Positions 9,356 through 48,256 of a stretch of DNA of 64,000 nt are shown here, piece after piece; position 1 is the stretch's first letter; every line of letters begins with the position of its first letter. The stretch comes from Rivibacter subsaxonicus (GTDB taxonomy: Bacteria > Pseudomonadota > Gammaproteobacteria > Burkholderiales > Burkholderiaceae_C). Both the position numbers and the translations under genes were made by a program. The stretch is from the NCBI RefSeq assembly GCF_004217215.1, contig NZ_SHKP01000007.1:372001-436000 (forward strand), read 5' to 3'. Below the pieces are notes generated by a model, which saw only the letters and a list, made by a program, of their open reading frames with translations, was not told the origin of the DNA and did not search any database.

Positions 9356-9409
9356 TGCCCGTCGCGCGGGGTGGCGGAACCGGAGCGGGCCGCTGTCACG
9401 TCGACGACT

Positions 9410-9437: not shown

Positions 9438-9477
9438 TCCCGCCCTGTTTTTCCCGTTACCTCCCTGGAGGAGTTTC

Positions 9478-9720
9478 ATGAGCGATATCGAAGCACGCGT
9501 CAAGAAGATCATTGCCGAGCAACTCGGCGTGGCCGAAGCCGAAGTTACCCACGAGAAGGCCTTCGTGGCCGACCTCGGCGCCGACTCGCTGGACACCGTC
9601 GAACTGGTGATGGCCCTCGAAGACGAGTTCGGCATCGAGATCCCGGACGAAGAGGCCGAGAAGATCACGACCGTCCAGCTCGCGATCACCTACGCCCAGA
9701 ACCACGCCAAGGCGGCCTGA
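9478..9720 (+). CDS. acpP: Acyl carrier protein
   Basis: Carries growing acyl chains on a 4'-phosphopantetheine arm attached by AcpS, whose gene is also in this window. The attachment serine is Ser37 in [10 protein letters not shown]. The 80-residue acidic protein ends with the usual [10 protein letters not shown] segment. A strong ribosome binding site (ggagga) precedes the ATG, fitting the very high expression expected. Confidence 0.98.
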
Positions 9721-9759
9721 GCGGCTGCTGGCGGGTAGTAGAGAAGGCTTGCGCGAGCT

Positions 9760-11004: not shown

Positions 11005-11045
11005 TGCCTCGGCATCGGTCGGCGGCCCTGGGCTGAGTCCGATCG

Positions 11046-11543: not shown

Positions 11544-11627
11544 GCCAATGACGCCAGCCCGCTCCCTTCGTTCGCTGCCCCCCGAGGGGGTGCTCGGCGC
11601 GTTTTGGGTGGCCCGGCACGCGCCGAC

Positions 11628-12242: not shown

Positions 12243-12272
12243 CCGCCCTGGTTTGAATTCAGGAGTCAGTAG

Positions 12273-12935
12273 ATGAAGTCCCCCCCGATCAACCTGCAGC
12301 CCGAGGACCTGTCCGCGTTGTGCGACGGCGAGGCCGACGCCTCGGTGGCCGCCGCGGCGTCCCTGGCCTGGCGCGACGACGCCCAGTTGCGCGCGCGCTG
12401 GCACAGCTTCCACCTGATCGGCGACGTGCTGCGCTCCGAAGACCTGGCCCGCCCGGCTGCGGCCGACGCCACCTTCCTGCAGGCGCTGCGCGAGCGACTG
12501 GCCGCCGAGCCGGTGGTGCTGGCGCCGACCGCCGAGGCCGGGGGTGCCGCATCGCCGACGCCGTCGCAAGCACCGGCCCGCAGCGTTGCCCGCCGGCGCT
12601 GGATGGGTTCGGGCGCGATTGCCGCCGGCTTCGTGGCCGTCCTGGGCTCGGTGTTCGTGCTGCGGGCACCGAGCGGCGTCGAGGCCGGCTCGGCCCAGAT
12701 GGCGGCCGGTCCGGCAACAGCGGTTCCCGCACTGGTGGCCGCGGTCGAGGCGGTGCCGACGCCGCGCGCCCTGGTCGCCGAGCCGACGCGGGCAATCGCC
12801 GCCAACGGCTCCTTGCTGCGCGATGCCGGCCTCGACCGCTACCTGGCGGCGCACCAGCAGTTCGGAGGCAACTCGGCGCTGGCGGTGCCTTCGGGCTTCA
12901 TGCGCAACGCGACCTACGAAGGGCCGAGCCGCTGA
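12273..12935 (+). CDS. rseA: Anti-sigma-E factor RseA
   Basis: Inner-membrane protein that holds sigma-E inactive until cleaved under envelope stress. The N-terminal cytoplasmic domain carries LSALCDGEAD (residues 13-22) and WHSFHLIGDVLR (47-58), the typical RseA sigma-binding features. A single hydrophobic span lies near residues 111-131 (WMGSGAIAAGFVAVLGSVFVL), followed by an Ala-rich periplasmic part. 220 residues, same order as in other proteobacteria; rseB follows after 1 base. Confidence 0.9.
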   Translation: MKSPPINLQPEDLSALCDGEADASVAAAASLAWRDDAQLRARWHSFHLIGDVLRSEDLARPAAADATFLQALRERLAAEPVVLAPTAEAGGAASPTPSQAPARSVARRRWMGSGAIAAGFVAVLGSVFVLRAPSGVEAGSAQMAAGPATAVPALVAAVEAVPTPRALVAEPTRAIAANGSLLRDAGLDRYLAAHQQFGGNSALAVPSGFMRNATYEGPSR

Positions 12936-12936
12936 T

Positions 12937-14001
12937 ATGTCGAAGCTGGCCCTGAATGCTGCTCCGGTGCAGCGCGAGCGCCTCTGGAGCGCGCTGGCCT
13001 GCGTCAGCGCGGCCTGGTTCACCGGGGCGGCGCCGGCGCGGGCGCAGACGGCCGATCCGCTGGTCGATGCGCGCGAGGCGCGCCGCTGGCTTTCGCGCAT
13101 GCACGAAGCGGCCGGGCGCAAGAGCTTTCAAGGGATCTTCGTCGTCAGCGCCGGCGGCGCCGTGTCGAGCTCGCACATCGTCCACTACTGCGACGGCCGC
13201 AACCAGTACGAGCGCATCGACTCGCTCGACGGCCAGCGGCGCCGGGTCCTGCGACACAACGACACCGTGCTCACGCTGTGGCCGACGAGCCGGGTCGCGC
13301 TGTTGGAGTCGCGCGAGGCGCTCGGCGAGTTCCCGTCGCTGCTGCAGTCCAGCGCCGATCGCATCGTGCGGCTCTACGACGCGCGCCCGCTCGGCGCCGA
13401 TCGGGTGGCCGGACTCGACGCGCTGGTGCTGCAACTGCAGCCCAGGGACGCCTATCGTTTCGGGCTGCGGCTGTGGGCCGAGAAGAACTCCGGACTGCTG
13501 TTGCGGGCCGAGGTGCTTGGCGATCGCGACGAGGTCATCGAGTCTTCGGCCTTCTCGGAGGTGCAGATCGGCATCCGTTCGCAGCCCGAGCAGGTGCTGC
13601 AGGCCATGCGCCGGCTCGAAGGCTACCGGGTCGAGCGTCCGGTGCTCGATCCGACCGATCTCGAGCGTGAGGGCTGGCTCACGCGCCAGCTGCCGCCCGG
13701 ATTCGTGCTCAGCCGCAGCGTCAAGCGCGTGATCGACATCGAGCAGCCGCGCCCCGCGGCCATGGGCGACGCCGACGCTCGGGCAACCGTGCTGCAAAGC
13801 AGCTTTTCCGACGGCTTGAACCATGTTTCGGTGTTCATCGAACCTTTTCGCCCGCAACGACACAAACGGGAGTTGTTGATGTCGATGGGTGCCACCCAGA
13901 CCTTGGCGCTTCGCCATGGAGATTGGTGGCTCACCGTGATCGGCGACGTGCCGGTTCTGACCTTGCGGGCCTTTGCCGGCGCGTTGGAACGTCGCAAGTA
14001 G
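12937..14001 (+). CDS. rseB: Sigma-E regulatory periplasmic protein RseB/MucB
   Basis: Periplasmic protein that binds the RseA periplasmic part and shields it from proteolysis, sensing mislocalised lipoproteins or lipopolysaccharide. A signal peptide covers about residues 1-36, ending at ARA-Q. The lolA-like N-domain begins near residue 45 (DAREARRWLSRMHEA), and a smaller C-domain follows residue 240 (LPPGFVLSRSVKR, then FSDGLNHVSVFIEPF). 354 residues, complete. Confidence 0.92.
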   Translation: MSKLALNAAPVQRERLWSALACVSAAWFTGAAPARAQTADPLVDAREARRWLSRMHEAAGRKSFQGIFVVSAGGAVSSSHIVHYCDGRNQYERIDSLDGQRRRVLRHNDTVLTLWPTSRVALLESREALGEFPSLLQSSADRIVRLYDARPLGADRVAGLDALVLQLQPRDAYRFGLRLWAEKNSGLLLRAEVLGDRDEVIESSAFSEVQIGIRSQPEQVLQAMRRLEGYRVERPVLDPTDLEREGWLTRQLPPGFVLSRSVKRVIDIEQPRPAAMGDADARATVLQSSFSDGLNHVSVFIEPFRPQRHKRELLMSMGATQTLALRHGDWWLTVIGDVPVLTLRAFAGALERRK

Positions 14002-14159
14002 GGCCCTGCCTCGGCGTAGCCGCGGCGCGGTGACTGGTTGCGGCGCATGGTGTTCCCGTCCCCTTGTTGCTCTGGTCCCTCGAATGCACCTCGCATGCTG
14101 GATGCGTGCGTTAGCGAGTCCTCAATCTGTCCAACTTGTCCGATCCTGAAAGAGCTTTG

Positions 14160-15725
14160 ATGCGAACGAAACTCGAGAATCTGTCGCAACGTGCACCCGC
14201 GCTGCGTCTTTGGGGCTTTGCCGCGGCCGGTGTGGTCGCGGCCGGGGTCGCGGCGACCGCGCTGACGCCGCCGAGCGTCTCGCACGCCCAGGCCCAGTCG
14301 CCAGCGGCAGTGGCCGCCGCGCGCGGCCTGCCCGACTTTGCCGATCTGGCCGAGCAGATCAGCCCCTCGGTCGTCAACATCCGCACCACGGTGCGCAACG
14401 GCGGCGCCAACGCCGGCCCCGGCCGCGGTGGCGCGCCCGAGGGCGACGAGGAGATGCAGGAGTTCTTCCGCCGCTACTTCGGCGTGCCGCCCGGCCAGAT
14501 GCCGGGCCAGCCCGGGCAGCCGCGTCGTGGCGGCCCGCGCCAGCAGCAGCCAGGCGCCGAGGAAGAAACCCCGCGTGGCGTCGGCTCCGGCTTCATCTTC
14601 AGCAACGACGGCTACGTGATGACCAACGCGCACGTGGTCGACGGCGCCGACGAGGTCTACGTCACGCTGACCGACAAGCGCGAATTCAAGGCCAAGGTCA
14701 TCGGTGCCGACAAGCGCACCGACGTGGCCGTGGTCAAGATCGAAGCCGCCGGTCTGCCGGCCGTGAAGATCGGCGATGTCAACAAGCTGCGCGTCGGCGA
14801 GTGGGTCATGGCGATCGGCTCGCCCTTCGGCCTCGAGAGCTCGGTGACGGCCGGCATCGTCAGCGCCAAGGCGCGCGACACCGGCGAGTACGTGCCCTTC
14901 ATCCAGACCGACGTCGCGATCAACCCCGGCAACTCCGGCGGCCCGCTGCTCAACCTGCGCGGCGAGGTGGTCGGCATCAACTCGCAGATCCTGAGCCGCT
15001 CGGGCGGCTACATGGGCATCGCGTTCGCGATCCCGATCGACGAGGCAACGCGCGTGGCCGACCAGCTGCGCGGCAGCGGCCGCGTCGTGCGCGGGCGCAT
15101 CGGCGTGCAGATCGGCGAGGTCACCAAGGAAGTGGCCGAGTCGCTCGGCTTGGGCAAGGCCAGCGGCGCGCTGGTGCGCGGCGTCGAAAGCGGCGGCCCG
15201 GCCGACAAGGCGGGCCTCGAGGCCGGTGACATCGTGACCCGTTTCGAGGGCAAGCCGGTCGAGAAGTCGAGCGACCTGCCGCGCCTGGTCGGCAACACCA
15301 AGCCGGGTACCAAGGCGACGGTGCAGGTGTTCCGTCGGGGCGCCACGCGCGACCTCAACGTGATGGTCGCCGAGCTCGAGCCCGATGCGACCCAGAAGGC
15401 GCAGGCACCGGCCGCCGGCGGCAAGGCGGCACCGGCCGCCGCGGCGGCGTCGATGGGGCTCGGCCTGGCCGACCTGAGCGACGCTCAGAAGCGCGAACTC
15501 AAGGTCAAGGGTGGTGTGCGCATCGACTCCGTCGAGGGCTCGGCCGCACGTGCCGGCCTGCGCGAGGGTGACGTGATCCTGGCCGTGGCCAACACCGAGG
15601 TCGCCGACATCAAGCAGTTCGAGGCCGTCGTTGCCAAGCTCGACAAGAGCAAGCCGGTCAGCGTCCTGTTCCGACGTGGCGAGTGGGCGCAGTACGCGCT
15701 GGTGCGCCCGACGACCTCGCGCTGA
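14160..15725 (+). CDS. mucD: Periplasmic serine protease, DegP/MucD type
   Basis: Trypsin-like periplasmic protease and chaperone that clears misfolded envelope proteins. Numbered from the ATG at 14160 (521 residues), a signal peptide spans about 1-43. The catalytic His158 lies in TNAHVVDG, Asp188 in RTDVAVVKIE, and Ser259 in NPGNSGGPL. Two PDZ domains follow, about 285-375 and 430-515, separated by an Ala-rich linker. The chosen ATG has AAAGAG upstream; a TTG eight codons earlier is less likely. A Gly/Pro/Gln-rich loop inserted before the catalytic His (about 82-135) is longer than usual. Operon neighbours tie it to sigma-E. Confidence 0.93.
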   Translation: MRTKLENLSQRAPALRLWGFAAAGVVAAGVAATALTPPSVSHAQAQSPAAVAAARGLPDFADLAEQISPSVVNIRTTVRNGGANAGPGRGGAPEGDEEMQEFFRRYFGVPPGQMPGQPGQPRRGGPRQQQPGAEEETPRGVGSGFIFSNDGYVMTNAHVVDGADEVYVTLTDKREFKAKVIGADKRTDVAVVKIEAAGLPAVKIGDVNKLRVGEWVMAIGSPFGLESSVTAGIVSAKARDTGEYVPFIQTDVAINPGNSGGPLLNLRGEVVGINSQILSRSGGYMGIAFAIPIDEATRVADQLRGSGRVVRGRIGVQIGEVTKEVAESLGLGKASGALVRGVESGGPADKAGLEAGDIVTRFEGKPVEKSSDLPRLVGNTKPGTKATVQVFRRGATRDLNVMVAELEPDATQKAQAPAAGGKAAPAAAAASMGLGLADLSDAQKRELKVKGGVRIDSVEGSAARAGLREGDVILAVANTEVADIKQFEAVVAKLDKSKPVSVLFRRGEWAQYALVRPTTSR

Positions 15726-38535: not shown

Positions 38536-38610
38536 TGGTCCCGCCGACAGGAATCGAACCTGTATTTGCCGCTTAGGAGGCGGCCGTTCTATCCATTGAA
38601 CTACGGCGAG
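38536..38610 (-). tRNA. tRNA-Arg (anticodon CCT), element-side copy
   Basis: Acceptor stem CTCGCCG/CGGCGGG with one T-G pair, D arm GTTC...GAAC, anticodon loop CTCCTAA giving CCT, T arm ACAGG/CCTGT around TTCGATT, and encoded CCA. The 5' flank is element DNA and has no convincing -10 element, so expression may depend on read-through from the element's leftward genes. Confidence 0.93.
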
Positions 38611-38612
38611 GG
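38536..38612. repeat. Left attachment repeat (77-bp direct repeat)
   Basis: Identical over 77 bases to 48180-48256. It contains a whole tRNA gene plus two bases beyond its 5' end, which is longer than the usual partial tRNA duplication at an attachment site. Confidence 0.92.
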
Positions 38613-38624
38613 CGATGGCCTACG

Positions 38625-38685
38625 CCGTTCCCCCGGACTAGAGTCCGTTCCCCTTCCTGTTCTCCCTTGTTGTGATGTACATCAC
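38625..38685. promoter_or_regulatory. Left-end symmetry elements: GTTCCCC repeats and GTGATGTACATCAC palindrome
   Basis: CCGTTCCCCC at 38625-38634 and CCGTTCCCCT at 38645-38654 flank a CGGACTAGAGTCCG palindrome (38634-38647). They resemble the CTGTTCCCCC repeats at the integrase end and may be integrase arm sites. A perfect 14-bp palindrome GTGATGTACATCAC (38672-38685), followed by another ATGTACATCAC, resembles an operator for a dimeric regulator. Confidence 0.4.
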
Positions 38686-38692
38686 ATGTACA

Positions 38693-38899
38693 TCACAGCA
38701 GGTCGTCCACCTTCTGGAGTCCTCGCTCCTGGAGCAACTCCCGGCACTTCCGAAGAGCAGCGTTCACTGTCTGCCCGACCGCGGAACGGCTGACACCGAT
38801 GGCCTGAGCAATCTCTGCGTTGGTCAGGTCTGCGTCCCTGTCCGACGAGCCGAAGGGACGCCCAGACTGACGACCAGTCTTCCGCCTCTGGCGGGTCAC
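38693..38899 (-). CDS. Small sigma-70 region 4-like helix-turn-helix protein
   Basis: 68 residues with a basic N-terminus and the segment LTNAEIAQAIGVSRSAVGQTVNAALRKCR, which matches sigma factor region 4, the helix-turn-helix contacting -35 elements. No region 2 is present, so it is not a full sigma factor; it probably acts as a transcription regulator in the capsid operon. GTG start overlapping the upstream stop as GTGA; GGAAGGA lies upstream. A palindrome just past its stop might be its own operator. Confidence 0.7.
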   Translation of the reverse strand: MTRQRRKTGRQSGRPFGSSDRDADLTNAEIAQAIGVSRSAVGQTVNAALRKCRELLQERGLQKVDDLL

Positions 38900-39171
38900 T
38901 GAAGAGTCCTTCCCTCTGAGACCCCTTGCACCTGGCAGTCCGCGGCTACGAGGTTGACGATCTGCAGGCGCTTCACGAGGAAGTTGTTCTGGTCGTCCAG
39001 GCAGACCACGGCCTCGTCCGCGGAGGGCTCGTACATCAGGGCCTGGACCTCGTTGATCCTGGCGACCATGACCCCACCCAGCGGGGCGGAAGGATCAGCG
39101 GTCTTGGCCCAGTCGATCAGGACCTGGACCGCGCCATGGACCAGTGCCTTGTCCGCATCTGTCCCGTCCAT
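38896..39171 (-). CDS. Unknown 91-residue protein following the capsid gene
   Basis: Not recognised. A soluble protein with one helix (ALVHGAVQVLIDWAKTA, about 9-25) and a beta-rich C-terminal half (VMVARINEVQALMY, then NFLVKRLQIVNLVA). It starts one base after the capsid stop with no clear ribosome binding site, suggesting translational coupling. By position it could be a head-completion, scaffold or decoration partner, but nothing in the sequence proves that. Confidence 0.6.
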   Translation of the reverse strand: MDGTDADKALVHGAVQVLIDWAKTADPSAPLGGVMVARINEVQALMYEPSADEAVVCLDDQNNFLVKRLQIVNLVAADCQVQGVSEGRTLQ

Positions 39172-39172
39172 G

Positions 39173-40117
39173 TCAGGACACCCGGAAAGCGGCCACCGCG
39201 GAGGGGAGGCATTTGCTCCAGGCGAGGAAGGATTCCGCTCGGACAGAGAACAGATTCAACTGCCACAGACTGACCGCGGAGATGGTGTCGGTCTCCGGGC
39301 TGTCAGACATCTCGACCATGCCTTCCTCTGAGTTCGCGAGATCCACGGTCAGAACCGTTGCCGCGATGGCAGAGGCGCAGTACGCGATGACCAGGTTGGA
39401 CTCGACCGCAGGGCTGACGACCACGGACTGGAAGACGCTCTGCCCTGGATACATGGCCGCGAACTGAAGGCCCGCCGTGTAGCCCATCAACAGGGAAACA
39501 GGCCCTGCGGCAGAGACGACCTGAGCCGCGACAGCCAGACCCGCTGGAAGCGTGGCCGTCGAGATCGTCAGGCCGTCCAGGATCGACAACGGAGCGTCTG
39601 CCATCGAAGGGATGGCGACAAGGGCCGCGTCGACCGACTTCGTGATGGACCTGACCATCGCATCCTCGACAGCTTGCTCCAGAGTCTCCAGATACCGCGG
39701 ATTGTTCGCAGCACCAGAACCGTCTGCGCCGCCGACCTTGAATAGGTCCCGCGAGAACACTGCCATCGTGATGATCTTCTTCGGCGGAAGTGCCGTGCTG
39801 CCAATCAGCCACTTGCTGACCGGCTTGAGCTTCTGTTCCCCGAGCCAGTAGCTGATCGGGTCCTGGAGGACCGTGGCGACGCGGAAGTTCGCGATTGCCG
39901 GTCGGAGGTTCATCTGGCCGATCAGGGACTCCTCTTGGACCCTGGAGACGATCCCGTCGTCCAGGCGCAGTCCCGCGAAGTCCTGAGTGCCAGAGATACC
40001 TACCGCAGCCCGTTCCAGCACGGCCTTGGTCAGCGGAGACAACCCCTGACTATTCATGGCCGCATGGGCACCAGGAAACCGGCCAAGCGCAGTGATGGCT
40101 TTCGCAATTGACGACAT
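39173..40117 (-). CDS. Phage major capsid protein, HK97 type
   Basis: 314 residues with features of HK97-fold capsid subunits. The core motif PISYWLGEQKLKPVSK (about 87-102) and TALPPKKIITMAVFSRDL (about 108-125) match the P-domain pattern of a Y/WxGEG...PVS...L.PKK segment. The C-terminal SLWQLNLFSVRAESFLAWSK (about 282-301) matches the terminal strand and helix that in other capsids reads WQ.N..A.RAE...W. There is no long scaffolding delta domain and no protease gene, so assembly may proceed without maturation cleavage. AAGGAG lies eight bases before the ATG. It follows the 88-residue gene after 12 bases and is the only structural phage gene in the element. Confidence 0.8.
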   Translation of the reverse strand: MSSIAKAITALGRFPGAHAAMNSQGLSPLTKAVLERAAVGISGTQDFAGLRLDDGIVSRVQEESLIGQMNLRPAIANFRVATVLQDPISYWLGEQKLKPVSKWLIGSTALPPKKIITMAVFSRDLFKVGGADGSGAANNPRYLETLEQAVEDAMVRSITKSVDAALVAIPSMADAPLSILDGLTISTATLPAGLAVAAQVVSAAGPVSLLMGYTAGLQFAAMYPGQSVFQSVVVSPAVESNLVIAYCASAIAATVLTVDLANSEEGMVEMSDSPETDTISAVSLWQLNLFSVRAESFLAWSKCLPSAVAAFRVS

Positions 40118-40129
40118 TTTGGGTACTCC

Positions 40130-40396
40130 TTAGGTAATGACAAGGAAATGGCCGACTCGGCCTGGGTGCGGGACGACTTCATACCCGAATAGCCTGAGCA
40201 AATACGAGTTCTGCTCCGCGGACGGGATCTCTGGGTTCAGGCGCATCTGAAGCACTCCCGTCGGGCCGAATCGGATAGCCACGATCTGCTCCTTGCCACC
40301 GATCACTGCCCAAAGGCAGGATTCCGCGGGAATATCGTCAAGTTCTCCGCCCAGAAGCCTGAAAACTCCGATTTCGTCGGTCGCTTGGAACAGCAT
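40130..40396 (-). CDS. Unknown 88-residue protein preceding the capsid gene
   Basis: Not recognised. Beta-rich sequence (VFRLLGGELDDIPAESCLWAVIGG, then VLQMRLNPEIPSAEQNSYLL) without membrane segments. A good AGGAG lies upstream of the ATG and it leads the capsid operon, so a head accessory or regulatory role is possible. A head-decoration protein is one guess; it cannot be confirmed here. Confidence 0.6.
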   Translation of the reverse strand: MLFQATDEIGVFRLLGGELDDIPAESCLWAVIGGKEQIVAIRFGPTGVLQMRLNPEIPSAEQNSYLLRLFGYEVVPHPGRVGHFLVIT

Positions 40397-40543
40397 TTCT
40401 GGCTCCTAGAAGGGGGGGGATATGGGGCCCCTGGAAAGTTGAAAACTTAGTCTCTGATTGGGGGACGGTGGCGTATGAGGGTCTATTCAATAGAAATTCT
40501 GACCATCCCCCCAACCCATGTCCCCATCTCTCCACAAACAAAA
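40397..40543 (-). promoter_or_regulatory. Likely promoter region of the capsid operon
   Basis: About 147 bases without a gene, bounded upstream by a leftward terminator. A possible promoter is TTGGGG (about 40508-40513 on the complementary strand), then about 16 bases, then TATTGA. It also holds runs of G and C. Weak match; no operator symmetry stands out. Confidence 0.35.
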
Positions 40544-40572
40544 ACAGCCTGAACTGATTTAGTCCAGGCTGT
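40536..40572 (-). terminator. Rho-independent terminator, leftward
   Basis: Arms ACAGCCTG (40544-40551) and CAGGCTGT (40565-40572) with a 13-base loop; read leftward the hairpin is followed by TTTTTGTTTG. It insulates the capsid operon from the cargo genes upstream. Confidence 0.8.
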
Positions 40573-40759
40573 CTTCTGAATCTTTGAGTGACAGGATCAT
40601 TGGTCCTGTGTCCTTGTCCCTTTCCTCCGAACAACTCTCACAGAGTCCCAATCTGAATGCCGGCACAGAGACATGGAATCGGTTCCAGCAGTTTCTGCAG
40701 GAATCCTTGGACGGTCTGTCTGCGGGTATCTGGTATCGGCTGGAGCCCATGGCGGGCAT
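40559..40759 (-). CDS. Possible small zinc-ribbon protein
   Basis: A frame ending in the loop of the terminator encodes about 66 residues with CRNC and CESC pairs 17 residues apart, which fits a zinc ribbon. The tail is acidic (EDSLD). The ATG at 40759 is one of several possible starts and none has a good ribosome binding site; a GTG at 40795 is also in frame. Codon use is moderate. Real but uncertain. Confidence 0.4.
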   Translation of the reverse strand: MPAMGSSRYQIPADRPSKDSCRNCWNRFHVSVPAFRLGLCESCSEERDKDTGPMILSLKDSEDSLD

Positions 40760-40974
40760 TGCATCGGACCGTGGCGGGGTCCGTCCACCTATCACGGTTC
40801 CGGGGTTTTTGCCAACGTGGGCGGCTGCCCACGGAAGCGGGGAACGGATGGGGCGACCAAAAGGGGGAGGGCATCCCCACCGTCAGGGGGCCGGCCGAGC
40901 CACGGAATCACGCTCAGAGGCGCCGAAACCATCCGCGGAGGGGAAACCCAAGGGCCCTAAGGCCCTCGTGTGCG

Positions 40975-41193
40975 TCAGAGGCGCAGACGGATCTTCTGGG
41001 TATGGGTCGCCAGGCGGCTGTTGACCAGCCAGAAGAACACCGCGGACAGTTCCTTGCGACTCGGGTTGCCTGGGATCAGGTGGCGGTACTTGTCAGCGTC
41101 ACGCTGACTGCAGGAGAGCCCGTACGGATAGTCCTGCAGGAAGTCGATAACCGACTCTCTGAGGAAATCCCGTCGTTCACGATCTGGCTTCAC
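40975..41193 (-). CDS. Possible 72-residue unknown protein
   Basis: Charged N-terminus (DRERRDFLRESVIDFLQDYP) and the segment YRHLIPGNPSRKELSAVFFWLVNSRLATH. GTG start 31 bases downstream of the preceding gene's stop; ribosome binding site weak. Third-position GC is high on this strand, favouring a real gene. Function unknown. The 215 bases to its left hold no convincing gene. Confidence 0.45.
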   Translation of the reverse strand: MKPDRERRDFLRESVIDFLQDYPYGLSCSQRDADKYRHLIPGNPSRKELSAVFFWLVNSRLATHTQKIRLRL

Positions 41194-41223
41194 GCCAGGG
41201 ATTCTGGCGCAGTCAGCCCGCGG

Positions 41224-41982
41224 TCACTTGAAAAGCCCGATGCGCTTCGCCTCAGCTTCGATCGCGTTCAGGATACTTTCGACTTCTTGAGCGAGGTGGT
41301 TCAGAACATCCACTGCTGGCTGACCAATCACAGGCCCGACATCGAGGAGAGATATGCAATAGGTATAACCGAAAGTGAAGTCAAGCGTGCCACCGATAGC
41401 GTATCGGGCCAATTCCATCTCATTCTTCGTGTGATCCCACTTGGGGTTGGGAATCGATAGCATGCCGGGATTGCCACCTAACATATTGAACTGTATCCCG
41501 GCAGTGGCAATCGCGGTAGGAGATGTGATCCGATGCTTGTTGGTATTGGATAGCTTATTCAATGCCCAAAGGAGATCGTTCCCGCCTTTGTAGGGCTTGA
41601 ATCCAACCATCACGTCGAAGATCTCTTGCGGGATCTCCGCAGAGCCACCCTTCTGCTTGCCACGCACGTCTGCAAGAGAAGCGCCGAAGGGGAAGTAGGT
41701 ATCCATACCCTTCCCGCCGTGGGCTACAGATACCGCGTAACCGGCTTGGTCCAACGAACTACGCAGATTGTGAACCGCGTCAGACGCGATGCAGTTCAGC
41801 ACGGAGGGGAATGGCCTTACGAGCCGGAGCTTTGCGACATTTCGTTGGGCGAGCGTGTCGATTTCCGTAACCCTGGCGAAGGGGTTGCTGCCCATGAAAG
41901 CAGAGCCCTGAGCGTCCAAGTCGGCGATGTGCGTCCTGGCACGCGCTAGGGCGGCTCGTGGGCTGTCAAGTGGGTCAGTCAT
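41224..41982 (-). CDS. Unknown 252-residue cargo protein
   Basis: Not assigned to a named family. Conserved-looking helical motifs CIASDAVHNLRSSLDQAGYAV (about 64-84) and LWALNKLSNTNKHR (about 138-151) recur in uncharacterised bacterial proteins, where an HNLRSxLD helix and a NxxKHR helix pack together. The C-terminal region (VDVLNHLAQEVESILNAIEAEAKRIG) is helical. Base composition is lower in GC than the flanking chromosome. It lies 27 bases after a HEPN-like gene and may work with it. Confidence 0.65.
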   Translation of the reverse strand: MTDPLDSPRAALARARTHIADLDAQGSAFMGSNPFARVTEIDTLAQRNVAKLRLVRPFPSVLNCIASDAVHNLRSSLDQAGYAVSVAHGGKGMDTYFPFGASLADVRGKQKGGSAEIPQEIFDVMVGFKPYKGGNDLLWALNKLSNTNKHRITSPTAIATAGIQFNMLGGNPGMLSIPNPKWDHTKNEMELARYAIGGTLDFTFGYTYCISLLDVGPVIGQPAVDVLNHLAQEVESILNAIEAEAKRIGLFK

Positions 41983-42009
41983 GGCTTTGAAGCTTCAGCG
42001 GGCGCAAGT

Positions 42010-42795
42010 TTACTGAGTGAGCGGTGCCAAATGACGCATGAAGGATCGAACCGCGGCGAAGACTTCAGTCGCCTGCTCATCCGTGTAAGTTGCCTTCGGG
42101 TGCATCACTTCATTTCGCCATGCCTGTTTGACGTGGTACAGATGGGTACTGCTCTGCGACCATTGATCTCGAGCGGCTCCCTTCGGCAGGGCTTCGATTT
42201 CCTTGTTTATGTCACTCAGCAGCGGACCCCAGGGGAGGTCTATCTTGGCGATCCCGAGCTTTGTTGCCATGGCTCGAACTGCGATTTCCATGGCTCTCAT
42301 TAAGTGGAAGACAGCGGCGGTTGAACGCCCAAGCGCCAAACACTTGCCAGCCTCCTCGATATCCTCAGCGGCTGACGGAAACGATGCAGCCACCTCCGGC
42401 CCGAAATGAGGCTCATCGCGTTCGTAGAGCGCTGCTTTGTCTGGTGAGAGAACCAGGATTGCCCTTGCTTCGGTCTCAATGCGAATGACTTGAGTAAAGC
42501 CCCGCAGGTGCGCATCCAGTTGTGGCAAATGATGATCCCGCATGATCATGTCGCCGCTGGTCATGTCCACCGCCGCCGTTCGCAAATCTCCTGCAATCAG
42601 TGTTGCGAGCCTTCGGATGACCAGAAGATTCATCGCTTCACAGTCCGCCGCAAGGTTATCCGCCGCGGTGAGCCAAGTTTGATAATTGTCCGGATGCAGC
42701 GCAAGAGTGGCACCCTTGGCGGTGGAGACATGGTTTTGAAGAGTCACCATGGCTTGGACCGCACTAACTAACCGGGAGAGCGGAATCCTGAGCAT
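42010..42795 (-). CDS. HEPN-like protein, possible RNase
   Basis: 261 residues, mostly helical. The second half has the layout of HEPN domains: a helix with FHLMRAMEIAVRAMATKLGI (about 165-184) and a later helix with AWRNEVMHPKATYTDEQA, in which RNEVMH at 227-232 fits the catalytic R-N-x-x-x-H motif of HEPN ribonucleases. HEPN proteins are common toxins and phage-defence effectors. No nucleotidyltransferase (MNT) antitoxin gene is next to it, so the neighbour at 41224 could be its partner. The family assignment is by motif only. Confidence 0.55.
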   Translation of the reverse strand: MLRIPLSRLVSAVQAMVTLQNHVSTAKGATLALHPDNYQTWLTAADNLAADCEAMNLLVIRRLATLIAGDLRTAAVDMTSGDMIMRDHHLPQLDAHLRGFTQVIRIETEARAILVLSPDKAALYERDEPHFGPEVAASFPSAAEDIEEAGKCLALGRSTAAVFHLMRAMEIAVRAMATKLGIAKIDLPWGPLLSDINKEIEALPKGAARDQWSQSSTHLYHVKQAWRNEVMHPKATYTDEQATEVFAAVRSFMRHLAPLTQ

Positions 42796-42880
42796 TTCTC
42801 GAAGTCCTAAATGGGGATGATGACAATCCTACTCGAATTGAATCTGCGAAGTCTAGTTCTGGGTTGCAGTAATCGCGTCC

Positions 42881-43297
42881 TCAATTGGAGCTCTTGCCTT
42901 TGCCAGCGCTGAATCCAGCTATCACCCAAAGCGCCACCAGGACGACGCCTTCCATCAGGAGCCAAACCACTAGCGGCACCAGAAGTCCCACGATGCCGAT
43001 TTTCAAAGGGGAGGCACTGCTCACGATAATCTGCACTTCGTCCATCTTGTAGTCGCTACGCCCTTCCGCATATTTTTCCCACGGCTTCCCGCTCTCACGT
43101 TTCTGCCGTTCAGCAAGTTCTTCGGGTGTCATAGGCACCAACTGCTGACGCGTCTCTGTAGCATCGGAGCTCAGTAAACCGCTAGCGTCGCCAGTGATCG
43201 CAATGAGGACGATTCCGGCAAACCAGAGGGCGACGAATACTAGGCCAAGCCTGCGCCAGCCGTTGAGAGAAGCCATGACATTCTTCGGGGTGAGCAT
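42881..43297 (-). CDS. Two-helix membrane protein of unknown function
   Basis: 138 residues. One hydrophobic span lies at about 16-36 (GLVFVALWFAGIVLIAITG) and another at about 98-127 (IGIVGLLVPLVVWLLMEGVVLVALWVIAG), separated by a charged loop containing MTPEELAERQKRESGKPWEKY. It probably sits in the inner membrane with the loop on one side. In a satellite it could be cargo such as an exclusion or defence component; nothing identifies it. Confidence 0.6.
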   Translation of the reverse strand: MLTPKNVMASLNGWRRLGLVFVALWFAGIVLIAITGDASGLLSSDATETRQQLVPMTPEELAERQKRESGKPWEKYAEGRSDYKMDEVQIIVSSASPLKIGIVGLLVPLVVWLLMEGVVLVALWVIAGFSAGKGKSSN

Positions 43298-43605
43298 TGC
43301 GCGAGTCTACAGGCCCGCTGGCGGCGAGGGAATCGGGGAAACCGCGTGCGGGTCCTCAAACGTCGGAAAGTTGGCATTCAAAGGCCAACCCCATCGGTGG
43401 AGGAGGCAACCCCGTCGGGTCGTCGATTTCAGGGGGCAAGCGCGCATGTACGCGCATGGGAAAGTAACTTTATATATATATATTTGGCATTCAAAGGCAG
43501 ACAAAGAACCCGACGGGAAAGATCATGGAATCCTTTGTCTGCCTTTGAATGCCAAATTTCTGCGCCCTTTTTCATCGGCCCGTACGCGCGATCCCCCTGA
43601 AACCG
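43298..43605. other. Putative replication origin of the element
   Basis: A 308-base non-coding stretch next to the 3' end of the replication gene. Nested symmetry: TTTCAGGGGG at 43427-43436 is mirrored by CCCCCTGAAA at 43593-43602. Inside lies a perfect 25-bp inverted repeat (43482-43506 with 43533-43557) whose core, TTGGCATTCAAAGGC, recurs as a direct copy at 43371-43385. A TATATATATATAT tract at 43470-43483 abuts the left arm. Iterated binding sites plus an AT-rich unwinding tract is the classic layout of an initiator-dependent origin. A strong transcription terminator is the less likely alternative, since no T-run follows the arms in the rep direction. Confidence 0.6.
43482..43557. repeat. 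25-bp perfect inverted repeat within the origin region
   Basis: Arms 43482-43506 and 43533-43557, separated by 26 bases. Fifteen bases of the arm recur at 43371-43385, so at least three copies of one site are present. Confidence 0.9.
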
Positions 43606-45864
43606 TCAGAGCAATGGCAGGCGCCACCAGAACTGCCCGCGATGCACCTTCCTGAAAGTCTCGATGCCGAGAGCCGCCTTAGCCCGAGCAAGTGTCCTGG
43701 CGGACGTCCCGGCCGCCTTAGCCGCGGTCTCCATCTCCTTTGCTAGCCGAGGGGCACGCTCTAGGTGCTCGAACAGGAATTCCTGGGCGCGGGTCAGCGG
43801 GGAGTCGACTTGCGCTTCGTGCTCAGGGAGGAACCAGACCGCGTTGCCACCCAAGCCGAGCTTCCGGTTCTCAACGGCTAGCTCCGCCTTCGCCTTCTTC
43901 AACGCGCTGAGCGTGATGCCGCTTGCGCTAGCGTCGTTCTGTACTTCGGCGCTATCGACAGGCCCGTCGGCCAGTCGGTTCACCAGGAACTGCTTGGCTT
44001 GGACCACTTTCCGATCCTCTGTGGTCGGCGGGGCAATCAGGTCCCTAGCCGAGCCAACGCGTGCAGTGCCCCAGATGGTCTTGCTCGTGTGGATGAACTC
44101 GCCTTCGTTGGAGACGAACGCATCGGGCTCGATCACATACTCAAACCCGCCGCCTGATGGCCCCAAGTTGTTCTTCGCTCTAGACAACACGAACCGACGT
44201 TCATCTTCGGTCGCGAAGAGTTCTGCCGCCACCAAGACGATTCGAGAGATTGCCGTGAACGCCTGCGACGCCAGCACCCGATCTAGAACAGGCTTCCTCT
44301 CTGTGCCCTTTGCAAAGTGCGTCAGGCCCAGCGTGACCAGCTTGCAACGCTCAGTCAGATCTACGACGGGTTGGAGTCCGCGTCGGACGTCGCCGGCTTT
44401 GTGGGAGTCACCGTCAATGGCTGAGATCAACGGGTCGATCATCAGCATCTGAACCCCGCCGAGTCTTGTGATCGCCTGTTCCAGCTTTGGCATGTCAAAG
44501 GCAGGATCGAACAGCCTCACCTCGCCAGGGCCTAACTCCTTCGTCTCGCCCACCACGAAATAGATCATCGACGGGTCGCCTCCCATCGACACGAACCGCG
44601 GTAGCAGCGTGGCTCCGATTGAGTCCTCGCCAGTCCAGACGACCACCTTGCCCATTTTGGCCCGATGACCGTCAGGGAAGCAGCCCCCGACTGACACGGT
44701 TGCCAGGAGTGACATGCCAGTCGTGCTCTTGCCAACTCCCCCCTCGCCGGCGAGGAGGTGAACCGCCCCCTTCGCCAACCAACCGGGCCACAGCCACTCG
44801 GTAGCAGTCATCGGCACGCTGTCACCTCTGACCAGCACCCCGTCGTCCTTCTGCCCTTCAGCGGCACGAGAACCGGCCTCAGAGCCGCCAAACGCCTCCG
44901 CGGCGTCAGCGGCACGGGTCCGACCCTTCGTGGCGCTGTACGCCCGTTCCGCGGCTCGGACGTCCCCGTCGTGATCCAGAACGACGTGAGCGGCCCATGC
45001 ATCAAAGACCCCTGACAGCGGATCGCCAGCATGGTGACTGACCCAGAGGTCGTCCTTCCCAGGTATCCGGCTGATTCCCGGCATCCCGGTGGCCAGGGGG
45101 TGAGACCACCTGCCAGTGCCCTCGTCCTCGACGTAGTTGTGCTCCCTGAGCAGGTCCTCGACCTCGTGATCCCGGTTGAACTCCATTCGCCTGGACGACG
45201 GGAAGGCCAGTTTCTCTCCGTCCTGGCCCATCGAGGCAGAGACAGTGCCTCCGACAGCCTTGGCCATCGTCTGCTCGATCTCATGCCGGTACCCAATGTC
45301 CTCTGAGGCCCTCAGCCAGACCTCCAGGAGCTTGCCGTCCAGTTCCTGAAGGTCCTCGAAACTGCCTTCCAGCTTCTGCTTGTACTCGGTCAACCCATCC
45401 GCGGACAGGTACTTCGTGCCTCCCAAGCAGTCTTGGAGATTTGGGCTTCCGGCTCGCAGTTCGCCCAGAGTTCCGTGCTCAGTGGTCCTGAACCGGAGCC
45501 ACTTCAAGATCACACCCGCGGGGAGTCTGAATAGGAACTTGCCGCCACTGCCTGGACGGGTGCTTGAAGTCCAGATGCCACGTTCCCAGTCCGTCGAGGC
45601 GATACCCAGAGCTTTGAGCCCGGCCTTGAACCGCTCCACGTCATCAAAGTCCACGGAACAGAGTCCCGACCCGCTGAGATGTATTCCGAAGTTCGCGTCT
45701 TCAGGGGCATTCCGGATCTGGGCAGCGGTCAGGAACCGAGTATTCCATTCCTGACCGCTCGGCCTCTTGGACAGCGGCTGAAGTTCAACGACCTTGAATC
45801 CCTGTCTCCGGGCTTCGAGGGCGATTTTCTTACGAGGATTTACGAGAGCAGGTCGCTGGGACAT
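43606..45864 (-). CDS. Replication protein: primase-polymerase fused to a RecA-type helicase
   Basis: 752 residues. The N-terminal part (about 10-185) looks like a bifunctional primase-polymerase domain, with VDFDD (71-75) as the metal-binding acidic motif, STRPGSGGKFLF (101-112) and GELRAGSPN (134-142). The central domain is a hexameric RecA-type ATPase: Walker A AGEGGVGKST at 372-381, VVWTGEDS at 408-415, and Walker B QMLMID at 472-477, close to RepA-type plasmid and satellite helicases. The last 130 residues carry two winged-helix-like segments, perhaps for origin binding. It would start and unwind its own replication at the nearby origin. GGAG is 10 bases before the ATG. The protein explains why the element can replicate independently of the host initiator. 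Confidence 0.85.
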   Translation of the reverse strand: MSQRPALVNPRKKIALEARRQGFKVVELQPLSKRPSGQEWNTRFLTAAQIRNAPEDANFGIHLSGSGLCSVDFDDVERFKAGLKALGIASTDWERGIWTSSTRPGSGGKFLFRLPAGVILKWLRFRTTEHGTLGELRAGSPNLQDCLGGTKYLSADGLTEYKQKLEGSFEDLQELDGKLLEVWLRASEDIGYRHEIEQTMAKAVGGTVSASMGQDGEKLAFPSSRRMEFNRDHEVEDLLREHNYVEDEGTGRWSHPLATGMPGISRIPGKDDLWVSHHAGDPLSGVFDAWAAHVVLDHDGDVRAAERAYSATKGRTRAADAAEAFGGSEAGSRAAEGQKDDGVLVRGDSVPMTATEWLWPGWLAKGAVHLLAGEGGVGKSTTGMSLLATVSVGGCFPDGHRAKMGKVVVWTGEDSIGATLLPRFVSMGGDPSMIYFVVGETKELGPGEVRLFDPAFDMPKLEQAITRLGGVQMLMIDPLISAIDGDSHKAGDVRRGLQPVVDLTERCKLVTLGLTHFAKGTERKPVLDRVLASQAFTAISRIVLVAAELFATEDERRFVLSRAKNNLGPSGGGFEYVIEPDAFVSNEGEFIHTSKTIWGTARVGSARDLIAPPTTEDRKVVQAKQFLVNRLADGPVDSAEVQNDASASGITLSALKKAKAELAVENRKLGLGGNAVWFLPEHEAQVDSPLTRAQEFLFEHLERAPRLAKEMETAAKAAGTSARTLARAKAALGIETFRKVHRGQFWWRLPLL

Positions 45865-45983
45865 AATGGAAACTCCATTCGGAGGTTAGGTTGGTCCTGA
45901 GGCGGGTTAGGCTTTCCACGGATGGGGTTTCCTTTCCAGAAGACGTTGATAGGCTCCGGGGCGTTTCCCGGAGCCTATTTTTT
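45839..45983 (+). ncRNA. Candidate antisense RNA over the rep leader
   Basis: On the plus strand TTTACG (45839-45844), a 17-base spacer and CATAAT (45862-45867) form a promoter that overlaps the rep start codon. Transcription from about 45874 would run 110 bases to a strong terminator: 12-bp perfect stem (45949-45960 with 45967-45978), 6-base loop and six T residues (45978-45983). The RNA would be complementary to the untranslated leader of rep mRNA, the arrangement used by plasmids and satellites to limit replication. No coding frame fits this stretch. Confidence 0.55.
45949..45983 (+). terminator. Strong rightward terminator facing against the element's genes
   Basis: ATAGGCTCCGGG/CCCGGAGCCTAT stem with loop GCGTTT and a T6 tail on the plus strand only. 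No plus-strand gene precedes it, which is the main evidence for the antisense transcript. Confidence 0.85.
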
Positions 45984-45987
45984 GTGC

Positions 45988-46194
45988 TCATTTGCCTGGC
46001 CGTTTCGGGGGCAGCCGTGCATAGCATCCGACATACACGCGTTCGATGTAGCCACGATCCACGAGTTTGCGGAGGTGGGGGTTCAGGTTGAGCCGATCAG
46101 GAACCTGTGGCAGTTTCTTCAGAAGGTCCAGCAGGTCGATGCGAACGCCGACGGGAGGGAAGGCGGCAAGAATCTCTTCGTTTCGAACTCTCAT
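45988..46194 (-). CDS. Small winged-helix protein
   Basis: 68 residues, MRVRNEEILAAFPPVGVRID then LLDLLKKLPQVPDRLNLNPHLRKLVDRGYIERV, a pattern of three helices and a beta wing as in winged helix-turn-helix DNA-binding proteins. The ATG at 46194 has GAGGA eight bases upstream; a longer frame to 46275 lacks such a site. Likely a regulator of the element or a replication accessory protein. It is upstream of rep and probably in the same transcript. Confidence 0.65.
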   Translation of the reverse strand: MRVRNEEILAAFPPVGVRIDLLDLLKKLPQVPDRLNLNPHLRKLVDRGYIERVYVGCYARLPPKRPGK

Positions 46195-46276
46195 TTCAAA
46201 GTCCTCGGTGGTGGTTGAACAGAAGGCGGACTTTGATACGGGTTTTCTTCCCGTGAGCCACCGATTTTCTGCCATC

Positions 46277-46294
46277 TACCTATCGCGGTAGGTA
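46277..46294. promoter_or_regulatory. Palindrome between the AlpA-like and winged-helix genes
   Basis: TACCT (46277-46281) and AGGTA (46290-46294) mirror each other around ATCGCGGT, overlapping a TATACC -10-like hexamer on the minus strand. Probably an operator-promoter for the leftward replication genes, perhaps bound by the AlpA-like or winged-helix protein. Confidence 0.45.
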
Positions 46295-46303
46295 TACCCA
46301 GCG

Positions 46304-46489
46304 TCATGGCCGCCCTCTGACCAAGTGCTTGTCCTGTGCATCCAGGACTGATCCAGCCCAGGCCACACGCCGCGGGGAGATATTCACAGGTGGAGGGAAT
46401 CGCCCCGCGGTGACGAGCCTGTGCAGCGTGCTACGGCTAAACCCATAGCGACGGCAGACTTCGGGGGCTGAGAACCAGTGCATGAGCAA
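46304..46489 (-). CDS. alpA: AlpA-family helix-turn-helix regulator
   Basis: 61 residues, WFSAPEVCRRYGFSRSTLHRLVTAGRFPPPVNISPRRVAW, the characteristic MerR-like helix-turn-helix of AlpA/Vis regulators. In P4 and related satellites this small protein activates excision or late genes and competes with phage repressors. TTG (46489) with GGAG upstream and ATG (46483) are both possible starts. It is separated from the preceding gene by 32 bases. Confidence 0.85.
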   Translation of the reverse strand: MLMHWFSAPEVCRRYGFSRSTLHRLVTAGRFPPPVNISPRRVAWAGSVLDAQDKHLVRGRP

Positions 46490-46521
46490 ATGGTCTCCCG
46501 ACCAATGCCCTGCGGGGGAAA

Positions 46522-46839
46522 CTATCCCAATAGTTTCCTGAGCCAGACCTTCGACGGCACCGGGCCAAGGCGCAGTTCCACCCAGACCCGCTCGACGCTC
46601 GCAGCGGTGACCGCTTCCCCGCGTTCAACGAGGACAGCCTTGCAGCGGTCAAGCCTCTCTCTCGTTGGCTTGCCAGCCCGTTCCCGGATGGTCTGAGCCT
46701 TCAGGGCATTCATCCGGTACTTGGCAGCCTGTTGGAACGCTTGCTCGACTTCGGCGAGCCACGCAGCTTCATCCTCCGCGTCTCCGCTGAGGTATATGCG
46801 GATCGCGGCATCGAACAGCCGTTTGGCCCGCTCGCTCAT
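46522..46839 (-). CDS. Unknown 105-residue protein coupled to the integrase
   Basis: Helical protein (FDAAIRIYLSGDAEDEAAWLAEVEQAFQQAAKYRMNALKA, about 9-48) with a possible helix-turn-helix near 75-92 (GEAVTAASVERVWVELRLG). Its ATG overlaps the integrase stop as ATGA, so it should be made in step with the integrase. It might help recombination directionality, but no family is recognised. Confidence 0.6.
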   Translation of the reverse strand: MSERAKRLFDAAIRIYLSGDAEDEAAWLAEVEQAFQQAAKYRMNALKAQTIRERAGKPTRERLDRCKAVLVERGEAVTAASVERVWVELRLGPVPSKVWLRKLLG

Positions 46840-48032
46840 GGCGCGATCAGGTCCCCGTACTGCTGCACTGCTTCTGCCCGCTGGGCGAGGAACTGCGTGC
46901 GGTCGTATGCCCTTCCCAGAGCAGTCCGCGGAGCGTGGGCAAGCTGGGCCTCCAGGACGTCCGGACGGACTCCGGCTTCGGCCATGACTGTGCGGAAGGA
47001 CGCTCTGACGCCGTGGGCCGACTGCCCGAAGCCGGTCCTGTCGAAGCACGCTCCCAGAGTGGCATCTGACAGCCCCTTCCGCGGATCATTCCTGCCTTGG
47101 AACACCAGAGGTGACACCGGGTTGTGTGACGCCTTCAGACCGCGGAGGATCTCGACCGCCTGACGGCCGAGAGGCACCACGTGCGGGTCACCATTGGCCT
47201 TGTGTTCCACGCTGCGTTTCATCTCGCTCGACGGGATGGTCCACAGACCTTTGTCCAGGTCCAGCTGGTCCCACTTCATGAGGCGGATGTTCCCCGGCCT
47301 CTGAGCAGTGAGCATCAAGACCTTGCAGGCAGCCACGACGACAGCGGCGCCGGTCAGGGATGCATAGCACTGCCGCAGAGGTTCCACGTCCAGAAGAGCT
47401 TCCGCGTGCTTGGTCGGTGGCTTGGGTGCCATGACCCCTTCCAGGTCGTTCGCACAGTTCCGCTCGACCTGACCCTCCGCCAGCGCCACTTGCAGAGCAC
47501 GCTTGATGATCCTCACGCAGAAGCTGGCGGTGTCTCTCACCCCGCGAGCCTCGATGCTGCGGACCATCTGCAGGAGCATCGGAGCAGTCAGGTCCCCGAC
47601 GGGTGTGTCTCCGAGCCTCGGATAGATGTCCCGCTCCGCGGCGGCGACGTACCTTGACAGGTAGTCCGCGGACCACTTGGGCTTGTCCAGTTCCACAGAC
47701 CGTTCGATCGCCAGCCGAAGGGTGTGCGCAGCCGCCTCAGACGCTCGCTGCGCCTCGCGACGCTGCTGGACTGGATCAACCCCTTCGGCCAGCAGACGAC
47801 GCGCCTGGAGGCCGTTCTCTCGGGCCGCTGCCAGCGTGACGACGGGATGGATGCCCAGAGCCAGGCGCGTCTGCTGCTTGTCCGCAGGGCGCGAGTACTT
47901 CAGGAACCAACGACGGGAGGCAGACGAGACCTCTAGGTACAGGCCGGGACAGGGGCCACCGTCGAAGACGCGGACGAACTTCTTGTCAGGAGGGCAGACC
48001 GTCTTGCGGACTGCTGCTTCGGTCAGGGCCAT
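46836..48032 (-). CDS. int: Tyrosine recombinase (P4-type integrase)
   Basis: Site-specific recombinase that inserts and excises the element. 398 residues: an N-terminal DUF4102-type arm-binding domain (about 1-90, with FLKYSRPADKQQTRLALGIHPVVTLAAAR), a core-binding domain (about 105-205), and the catalytic domain with Arg245 (TAQRPGNIR), His340 and Arg343 (HGVRASFR), His366 (LAH), and Tyr376 (AYDRT). All five key residues are present. Its gene lies 148 bases from the right tRNA copy, which is its attachment site. Confidence 0.95.
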   Translation of the reverse strand: MALTEAAVRKTVCPPDKKFVRVFDGGPCPGLYLEVSSASRRWFLKYSRPADKQQTRLALGIHPVVTLAAARENGLQARRLLAEGVDPVQQRREAQRASEAAAHTLRLAIERSVELDKPKWSADYLSRYVAAAERDIYPRLGDTPVGDLTAPMLLQMVRSIEARGVRDTASFCVRIIKRALQVALAEGQVERNCANDLEGVMAPKPPTKHAEALLDVEPLRQCYASLTGAAVVVAACKVLMLTAQRPGNIRLMKWDQLDLDKGLWTIPSSEMKRSVEHKANGDPHVVPLGRQAVEILRGLKASHNPVSPLVFQGRNDPRKGLSDATLGACFDRTGFGQSAHGVRASFRTVMAEAGVRPDVLEAQLAHAPRTALGRAYDRTQFLAQRAEAVQQYGDLIAP

Positions 48033-48038
48033 GGTCCA

Positions 48039-48164
48039 GGGGGAACAGAGTTCTTGGAGACCCTGAATCTATCCCTTCTGTTCCCCCTGACTCTGAAACT
48101 TCATGGAGTTCTGTGACACTCCATGAACACAACTCGCCTATGACAACTTGGGTTCTGTTCCCCC
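48039..48164. promoter_or_regulatory. Integrase-end repeats and hairpin, probable attachment-site arms
   Basis: CTGTTCCCCC occurs at 48078-48087 and 48155-48164, and inverted at 48039-48048. Between the last two lies a perfect 10-bp inverted repeat (TTCATGGAGT 48100-48109 with ACTCCATGAA 48118-48127). Similar GTTCCCC motifs occur near the left end. These fit integrase arm-binding sites and a site for an excision factor. Confidence 0.5.
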
Positions 48165-48179
48165 GCTGAGAGGGGCTGG

Positions 48180-48254
48180 TGGTCCCGCCGACAGGAATCG
48201 AACCTGTATTTGCCGCTTAGGAGGCGGCCGTTCTATCCATTGAACTACGGCGAG
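48180..48254 (-). tRNA. tRNA-Arg (anticodon CCT), chromosomal-promoter copy
   Basis: Same 75 bases as the left copy, with encoded CCA. On its 5' side (48266-48271, minus strand) lies TACAAT, a good -10 element placing a start about five bases before the tRNA. This side is therefore the original host promoter, and the 3' half was supplied by the element. Confidence 0.95.
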
Positions 48255-48256
48255 GG
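48180..48256. repeat. Right attachment repeat (77-bp direct repeat)
   Basis: Identical to 38536-38612, at an offset of exactly 9,644 bases. It marks the right junction between element and chromosome. Confidence 0.92.

Follow-up and report, generated by a model that had tools for sequence, protein, structure and literature searches.

An integrated element at a tRNA-Arg gene

We analysed a 64,000-nucleotide stretch of Rivibacter subsaxonicus DNA (contig NZ_SHKP01000007.1, positions 372,001 to 436,000; hereafter the window), in which positions 38536-48256 are an integrated mobile element of 9,644 bp. The element lies between the two copies of an exact 77-bp direct repeat, and its single recognised structural gene encodes an HK97-type major capsid protein (MCP). 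A reading made from the sequence alone (the sequence-only reading) had placed this unit in tRNA-Arg(CCT); the repeat bears out the borders and corrects the detail, as each copy holds the entire tRNA gene. In 1-kb bins, the GC content is 56-65% in the element and 70-79% in the flanks. In at least five of 39 other related genomes (G406, G408, G409, G411 and G414, among the matches listed), a tRNA match lies 53-746 bp from the match to the right flank and on the same strand, an arrangement that speaks for the right-hand tRNA as the resident gene. The right-flank matches were also considered as examples of an empty integration site and dropped, since such matches do not show one.

Every gene assigned in the element lies on the minus strand (Table 1). 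The integrase, AlpA-like regulator, primase-helicase, origin-like region and single HK97-type capsid gene named in the sequence-only reading were all found, the capsid call being secure at the profile level only; the layout given there is amended by about 3 kb of cargo between the replication gene (rep) and the capsid gene. Directly downstream of rep are an inverted repeat, its core once more and an AT run; phage-inducible chromosomal islands (PICIs) have their origin at this place relative to the replication gene (PMC6092414). The window rep is matched in 24 of 399 genomes of the order, its own genome counted.

Among the cargo, the gene of the 252-amino-acid (aa) protein has a homologue in the related element L083 (12024-12767) and may have an accessory or defence function. 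Nine proteins of the element, among them the 261-aa HEPN-like protein, were compared with PADLOC, and none had a defence match. Matches of small proteins to Pfam Ndc80_HEC and Picorna_P3A, as well as a weak match to the small terminase subunit (TerS), were discarded as chance.

Table 1. Features of the window element (positions counted from the first nucleotide of the window)
Feature	Position	Strand	Basis or remark
Right direct-repeat copy, 77 bp	48180..48256	.	tRNA-Arg CCT 48180-48254 (-) inside; adjoins integrase
Tyrosine integrase, 398 aa	46836..48032	-	Pfam Arm-DNA-bind_3, Phage_int_M, Phage_integrase (arm, core and catalytic domains)
Small protein, ~105 aa, no assigned function	46522..46839	-	ATG at 46839 picked by eye
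AlpA-like excisionase/regulator, 61 aa	46304..46489	-	PHROGs phrog_66 1e-6, phrog_2790 1.6e-6
95-aa protein	45988..46275	-	No PHROG match
Replication protein (rep), Prim-Pol and AAA_25 helicase, 752 aa	43606..45864	-	Pfam Prim-Pol 1.4e-8, AAA_25 4.4e-27
Origin-like repeats	43366..43560	.	25-nt perfect inverted repeat 43482-43506/43533-43557; extra core copy 43371-43385
138-aa cargo protein, membrane-like by eye	42881..43297	-	No Pfam match
261-aa HEPN-like cargo protein	42010..42795	-	Pfam HEPN 3.5e-4, 21.1 bits against a cut-off of 22
252-aa cargo protein	41224..41982	-	Homologue in L083 element, 1.1e-16 / 2e-16
72-aa protein, no assigned function	40975..41193	-	Open frame; scanned with Pfam/PHROGs
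78-aa open frame	40559..40795	-	No PHROG match; least secure of the gene calls
88-aa protein, just upstream of capsid gene	40130..40396	-	No Pfam/PHROG family
HK97-type MCP without delta domain, 314 aa	39173..40117	-	phrog_617; AAGGAG before ATG
91-aa protein, directly downstream of capsid gene	38896..39171	-	phrog_3699 0.0011, function-unknown family
68-aa helix-turn-helix protein	38693..38899	-	Pfam Sigma70_r4 5.7e-6
Left direct-repeat copy, 77 bp	38536..38612	.	tRNA-Arg CCT 38536-38610 (-) inside

A lone capsid gene

The window MCP matches the major head protein family phrog_617 in PHROGs (5.7e-6), with the alignment running over the mature part of the capsid protein, and matches no family in Pfam. 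In profile comparisons, eight phage MCPs matched it with an E value of 2.2e-15 and thirteen satellite MCPs with one of 7.4e-15. A tblastn search matched 21 phage and 14 plasmid records, with 20.7-26.1% identity in the 34 matches listed; what it matched in phages and plasmids were phage-type MCPs only, all below 60% identity. When a profile of eleven satellite MCPs and the window MCP (A3) was compared with the PDB, six sequences were found at E<=1, the best of them a major capsid protein (6.5e-16), and HK97 gp5 entries appeared at 7e-5 to 9e-5. The codon-position GC of the capsid gene (0.61/0.49/0.77) resembles that of the integrase and rep genes. An encapsulin, that is, the protein of a cellular nanocompartment, was set aside on account of the gene's position within a bounded mobile element and of its relatives beside phage head genes.

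The fourteen called proteins of the element were scanned individually with Pfam, PHROGs or both, and reference proteins (terminase, portal, protease, tape measure, TerS, HNH) were matched against all 198 open stretches of at least 30 aa; these scans gave no terminase, portal, protease or tail gene in the element. They agree with the earlier statement that terminase, portal, tail and lysis genes are missing, lysis being covered only in that no such name came up in the Pfam and PHROG scans. P4-like satellites are marked by the P4 alpha-type replicase, psu, delta and sid genes. None of these names turned up in the Pfam and PHROG scans either, no search having been aimed at them.

Capsid relatives and the delta domain

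As a query on its own, the window MCP matched four of 399 genomes of the order including its own, the others at only 7e-5 to 5e-4. A profile of the window MCP and two satellite MCPs, L048 and L050 (A1), matched 54 of 399 genomes of the family at E 0.01, and A3 matched, at 1e-6, 26 of 389 genomes of the order and 5 of 360 of the class, the own genome being counted in each case. Strong relatives were defined by E < 1e-38, with weaker matches outside the counts. There are 23 besides the window MCP: 17 from the family search, five more from the order search (among them L048 and L050, which match by construction as seeds of A1) and one more from the class search.

The neighbourhoods of all 23 were examined in fetched stretches of up to 20 kb, using structural-gene references that were chosen by eye and of which PHROGs confirm examples of each kind. 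A head operon with terminase and portal is present in six (L049, L084, L086, L092, L093 and L134), and the other 17 have no full terminase-plus-portal set. In thirteen of these 17 neither gene was found (L048, L050, L083, L088, L089, L090, L095, L096, L097, L100, L132, L133 and L137), two have a portal only (L082 and L085) and two a terminase only (L087, full; L091, with its N-terminal part missing). Further structural genes among the 17 are a protease (L087, L088, L089, L096, L097, L100), a tape measure (L048, L082, L085, L089, L090, L100), TerS with HNH (L083, L087) and HNH (L048, L090, L100), and the MCP is the sole recognised structural gene in five (L050, L095, L132, L133, L137); contig ends cut L082, L100, L133 and L137. 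A PHROG scan of a subset of the larger unlabelled frames in the thirteen gave no terminase and no full portal, L050 and L133 having only a C-terminal stretch in common with portals and tail fibres. This stretch belongs to the gene after the capsid gene (L050 10561-11469, L133 4360-5172), and the gene in that place in L087 (10506-11648) and L100 (831-1502) likewise has a stretch common to tail-fibre PHROG profiles, the match to portal profiles being confined to L050 and L133.

The sequence-only reading had proposed a search for co-occurrence of the element's genes in other genomes, and the outcome is favourable: 14 of the 17 neighbourhoods with a related MCP and no terminase-plus-portal set contain an integrase, recognised by similarity to that of the window element in L050, L082, L083, L088, L091, L096, L097 and L132 and by PHROGs in L048, L085, L087, L089, L090 and L095; none was seen in L100, L133 and L137. 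The window rep has a strong match in six of the 17 (L088-L091, L096 and L097). In L091, transposase-like genes (by eye; 5683-8514) stand beside the shortened terminase, as in a decaying member of the group.

Weaker matches were also examined outside the 23 (L098, L099, L101, L135, L136 and L138-L143). L098, L139 and L141 have an MCP without large terminase subunit (TerL) and portal in the reference scan; L143 looks the same in that scan, but PHROGs find both genes there. Pattern scans of viral contigs (window MCP, rep, L048 capsid, alignments A5 and A4) and of genome contigs (window MCP, A5) gave no match, scans of this kind being dependent on near-identical peptides and of little value for distant kin.

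The window MCP begins near the usual cleavage point of phage capsid precursors, without the N-terminal scaffold (delta) domain. All ten phage-type MCPs compared (six from prophages, four from public phages) have at least 90 residues before the mature part. Among the 17 relatives, by contrast, the domain is retained in L132, a contig end truncates L100 and the other 15 begin at the mature N-arm; the MCP starts were chosen by us, and the frames of L082, L089, L090 and L133 are open further upstream. A hidden Markov model of the delta domain detected six of seven control MCPs outside its training set at 3.9e-16 to 1.3e-5, and the seventh at 0.019. For 17 delta-less capsid genes (the window, the 15 and L094, which is probably the other half of L100), the 1.5 kb of upstream sequence gave nothing better than E 0.16, and the whole window element nothing better than 1.1. 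Fisher tests gave 9e-5 for 15/16 delta-less MCPs versus 0/6 and 2e-6 versus 0/10, on rows that are related and trees that need only two to three changes of state.

In a tree without the window row, a branch with 98/97 support sets 13 delta-less satellite MCPs apart, and the ten phage MCPs form another side. Bootstrap values for the satellite clade are 97-98% across the trees. With L087 and L137 added, 14 of the 15 delta-less MCPs form a clade (97/95), and L137, found elsewhere in the class, stays outside. Holding the window MCP with the satellites was not rejected, either without these additions (approximately unbiased test, p 0.067) or with them (p 0.42), nor was holding it with the satellites plus L132 (p 0.065). 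The L096/L097 pair has a dN/dS of 0.154 in the MCP gene and of 0.09 in the protease gene (our own Nei-Gojobori script), that is, the MCP is under purifying selection in this one satellite pair.

Ten elements with repeats at both ends (the window element, L048, L050, L083, L085, L089, L095, L096, L097 and, from the weaker MCP set, L098) measure 9,480-10,985 bp, with a mean of 10,060. The end repeats are exact in the window element (77 bp), L098 (51 bp), L048 (48 bp) and L095 (19 bp), imperfect in L083, L085, L089 and L096, and of 14 bp at the tRNA ends in L050 and L097; the pair of L096 is situated outside its tRNA. No trusted repeat pair was found within the fetched stretches of L082, L087, L088, L090, L091, L094 and L132. 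Size was rejected as a mark of capsid-only elements, because two full capsid-forming PICIs (cfPICIs) are about equally long: L140 has ~10.9 kb when delimited by its 17-bp repeat (an imperfect but longer one lies further out), and L099 has ~11.2 kb as judged from alignments. The narrow size is therefore a feature of the wider group, cfPICIs included. L096 and L097 come from two congeneric species; they have ~6 kb in common at 93-96% identity and lie beside different tRNA genes. Moreover, L097, with a delta-less MCP and a protease only, and the full cfPICI L099 occupy the same tRNA-Ser site, where an integrase-bearing stretch of 1.4 kb is 95.8% identical, a case of whole-module exchange.

Possible role of the capsid protein

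Like a PICI, the window element occupies a fixed site with an integrase, a regulator and a replication module of its own, and it has no complete set of structural and lysis genes. It resembles the cfPICIs L036, L099, L138 and L140 in having an integrase at a tRNA or tmRNA gene, an AlpA-like gene, a replication gene, an MCP and a similar size. Those elements, however, encode a delta-bearing MCP, protease, portal and TerL, which is the equipment of a cfPICI, and L099, L138 and L140 additionally HNH and TerS, whereas the window element has the MCP only.

A satellite-borne MCP homologue is also what SaPIbov5 of Staphylococcus, a different host, carries in Ccm, which is 24% identical to the helper MCP (PMC8569155). 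Ccm occupies the pentamers of the phi12 shell and shifts it from prolate to small isometric; it is the sole SaPIbov5 protein in shells and the sole one required for redirection, and it cannot build shells alone (PMC8569155). The likeness to the window MCP is one of protein kind and of proposed role. Among the relatives, L132 (9402-10805), a lone delta-bearing MCP beside an integrase, is nearer the Ccm layout. Lone MCP homologues have been reported as well in the Gram-negative PICIs PmCI172, whose strain produces small capsids, and EcCICFT073, whose DNA is packaged in phage-sized heads (PMC6092414); the window element is of the same Gram-negative lone-MCP type, a likeness drawn by description only. 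Streptomyces satellites of the Mulch and Flayer systems, which live in different hosts, are also said to encode encapsidation functions (PMC10690885). The earlier suggestion of a possibly undescribed kind of satellite accordingly falls for the lone MCP homologue as such, which is already known from SaPIbov5, PmCI172 and EcCICFT073; the new part is the clade of delta-less MCPs. Titles and abstract beginnings in the open-licence literature mention no delta-less satellite MCP lineage and no Burkholderiales elements of such kind.

Our preferred reading of the window element, to which we give about an even chance, is a PICI-type satellite: its MCP would take a place among the subunits of a helper shell or substitute for them, and portal, terminase and tail would come from the helper. 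From induction to transfer, the course we infer would be as follows. The integrase and the AlpA-like protein would excise the element at tRNA-Arg, and the Prim-Pol/helicase would replicate it from the repeats downstream of its gene. A helper phage would supply portal, terminase, protease and tail, and the window MCP would enter the growing shell of this phage, joining or replacing its subunits. Assembly and packaging would thereby be redirected to a smaller head, in which ~10 kb fits and from which the helper genome is excluded, as Ccm does for SaPIbov5. As the delta domain is missing, the helper MCP would have to provide the scaffold, or else the window MCP would enter after nucleation. A broader proposal is more tentative, and we rate it clearly below an even chance: the relatives may constitute a satellite family, deeply diverged within the order that the sequence-only reading names as Burkholderiales, with its own pre-trimmed MCP lineage, unable to start a shell alone but entering the procapsid of the helper and resetting its size, whose members would add varied protease, portal, tape-measure and terminase parts and of which the window element would be the minimal, MCP-only form.

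The sequence-only reading had described a compact capsid-supplying satellite. Its compactness, own replication and single MCP stand, and supply of the whole capsid is the part that we would revise. Under that alternative, the MCP alone would form the entire satellite shell on a helper portal, with portal, protease and terminase borrowed, and the element would otherwise work as cfPICIs do. The varied mixes of protease, portal, HNH, TerS, TerL or tape measure in the relatives look as if particle supply were shared, and the presence of the full cfPICI L099 at the L097 site points the same way. Nevertheless, we regard whole-shell formation as unlikely, as the scans showed neither a delta domain nor a recognisable separate scaffold, the window element and L050, L095, L132, L133 and L137 are without recognised protease or portal, and Ccm is unable to form shells alone (PMC8569155). 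A mixed shell on the Ccm model would fit a very diverged, delta-less and portal-less MCP better.

Several observations weigh against the mixed-shell reading. Ccm has a delta domain (residues 1-87, cleaved; PMC8569155), and none was found in the window MCP and in 15 of the 17 relatives with incomplete neighbourhoods. The window MCP has at most 27% full-length identity to other rows of the tree, is shorter than its relatives in lacking stretches of the C-terminal half that they possess, and may no longer be able to assemble. It falls among phage MCPs without firm support, on an end branch of 2.4-2.5, and may be an independent capture. Of all MCPs in the trees it has the longest branch, and for that reason its activity can be relied on least. 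For a dN/dS estimate no close relative turned up, and a single-sequence structure model reached a pLDDT of 33 and was left out of fold searches. As regards the relatives, seeding with satellite MCPs tilts the sample to satellites and biases the 17-to-6 ratio, the reference scan can overlook diverged genes (a portal and a TerL escaped it in L143), and the integrase of L048 is split over two frames. Finally, a search of the host genome confined to portal (PF04860, phrog_12) and TerL (PF03354, phrog_9) profiles gave no match, and because of this the host appears to be without a resident helper of this head-gene type.

The missing resident helper would suit an interference device, in which a diverged MCP poisons the assembly of incoming phages and protects host and element without being packaged itself; the HEPN-like cargo nearby and the lone, delta-less and diverged state of the MCP could be seen in the same light. 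The replication gene, the origin-like repeats and the narrow size range point instead to a transferred element, and as Ccm does both, the two readings overlap. Taken by itself, interference seems to us very unlikely.

The length of the branch and the shortened MCP also bring up a remnant, that is, a cfPICI or prophage stripped of its other head genes and with a capsid gene on its way out. Signs of erosion are seen in L091, by its incomplete TerL and its transposase-like genes, and in the split integrase of L048. In the window element, however, the called genes run as open frames, the two repeat copies agree over all 77 bp, and the capsid gene still has a strong ribosome-binding site together with a GC pattern of the coding type. 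In addition, the clade of relatives without a terminase-plus-portal set, the narrow size range and the purifying selection in one pair argue against simple decay. Overall, a remnant appears quite unlikely; the earlier judgement that a decayed prophage is the less likely origin is strengthened by these group features, and tempered by a window MCP that is shorter than its relatives.

Satellites remodel phage heads by several unrelated routes, and a scaffold-free MCP lineage, if true, would be a second route that uses an MCP as the size switch. It would also make the role of the delta domain in head size directly testable. The relatives, with their differing mixtures of head and tail genes, also provide a natural series from minimal PICIs to cfPICIs.

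Two further arrangements were observed among the related loci. In L035 (genome G218, 8458-15329), a 1165-aa protein resembling a tape measure (by eye; 1e-16 to the tape measure of L085) comes after a relative of the window rep, with no capsid gene noticed between them, and this locus is perhaps a satellite carrying a tail-length gene only. In L096 (13065-14153) and L097 (5660-6565), a topoisomerase-type protein (phrog_6247, ~1e-51) is encoded between AlpA and rep.

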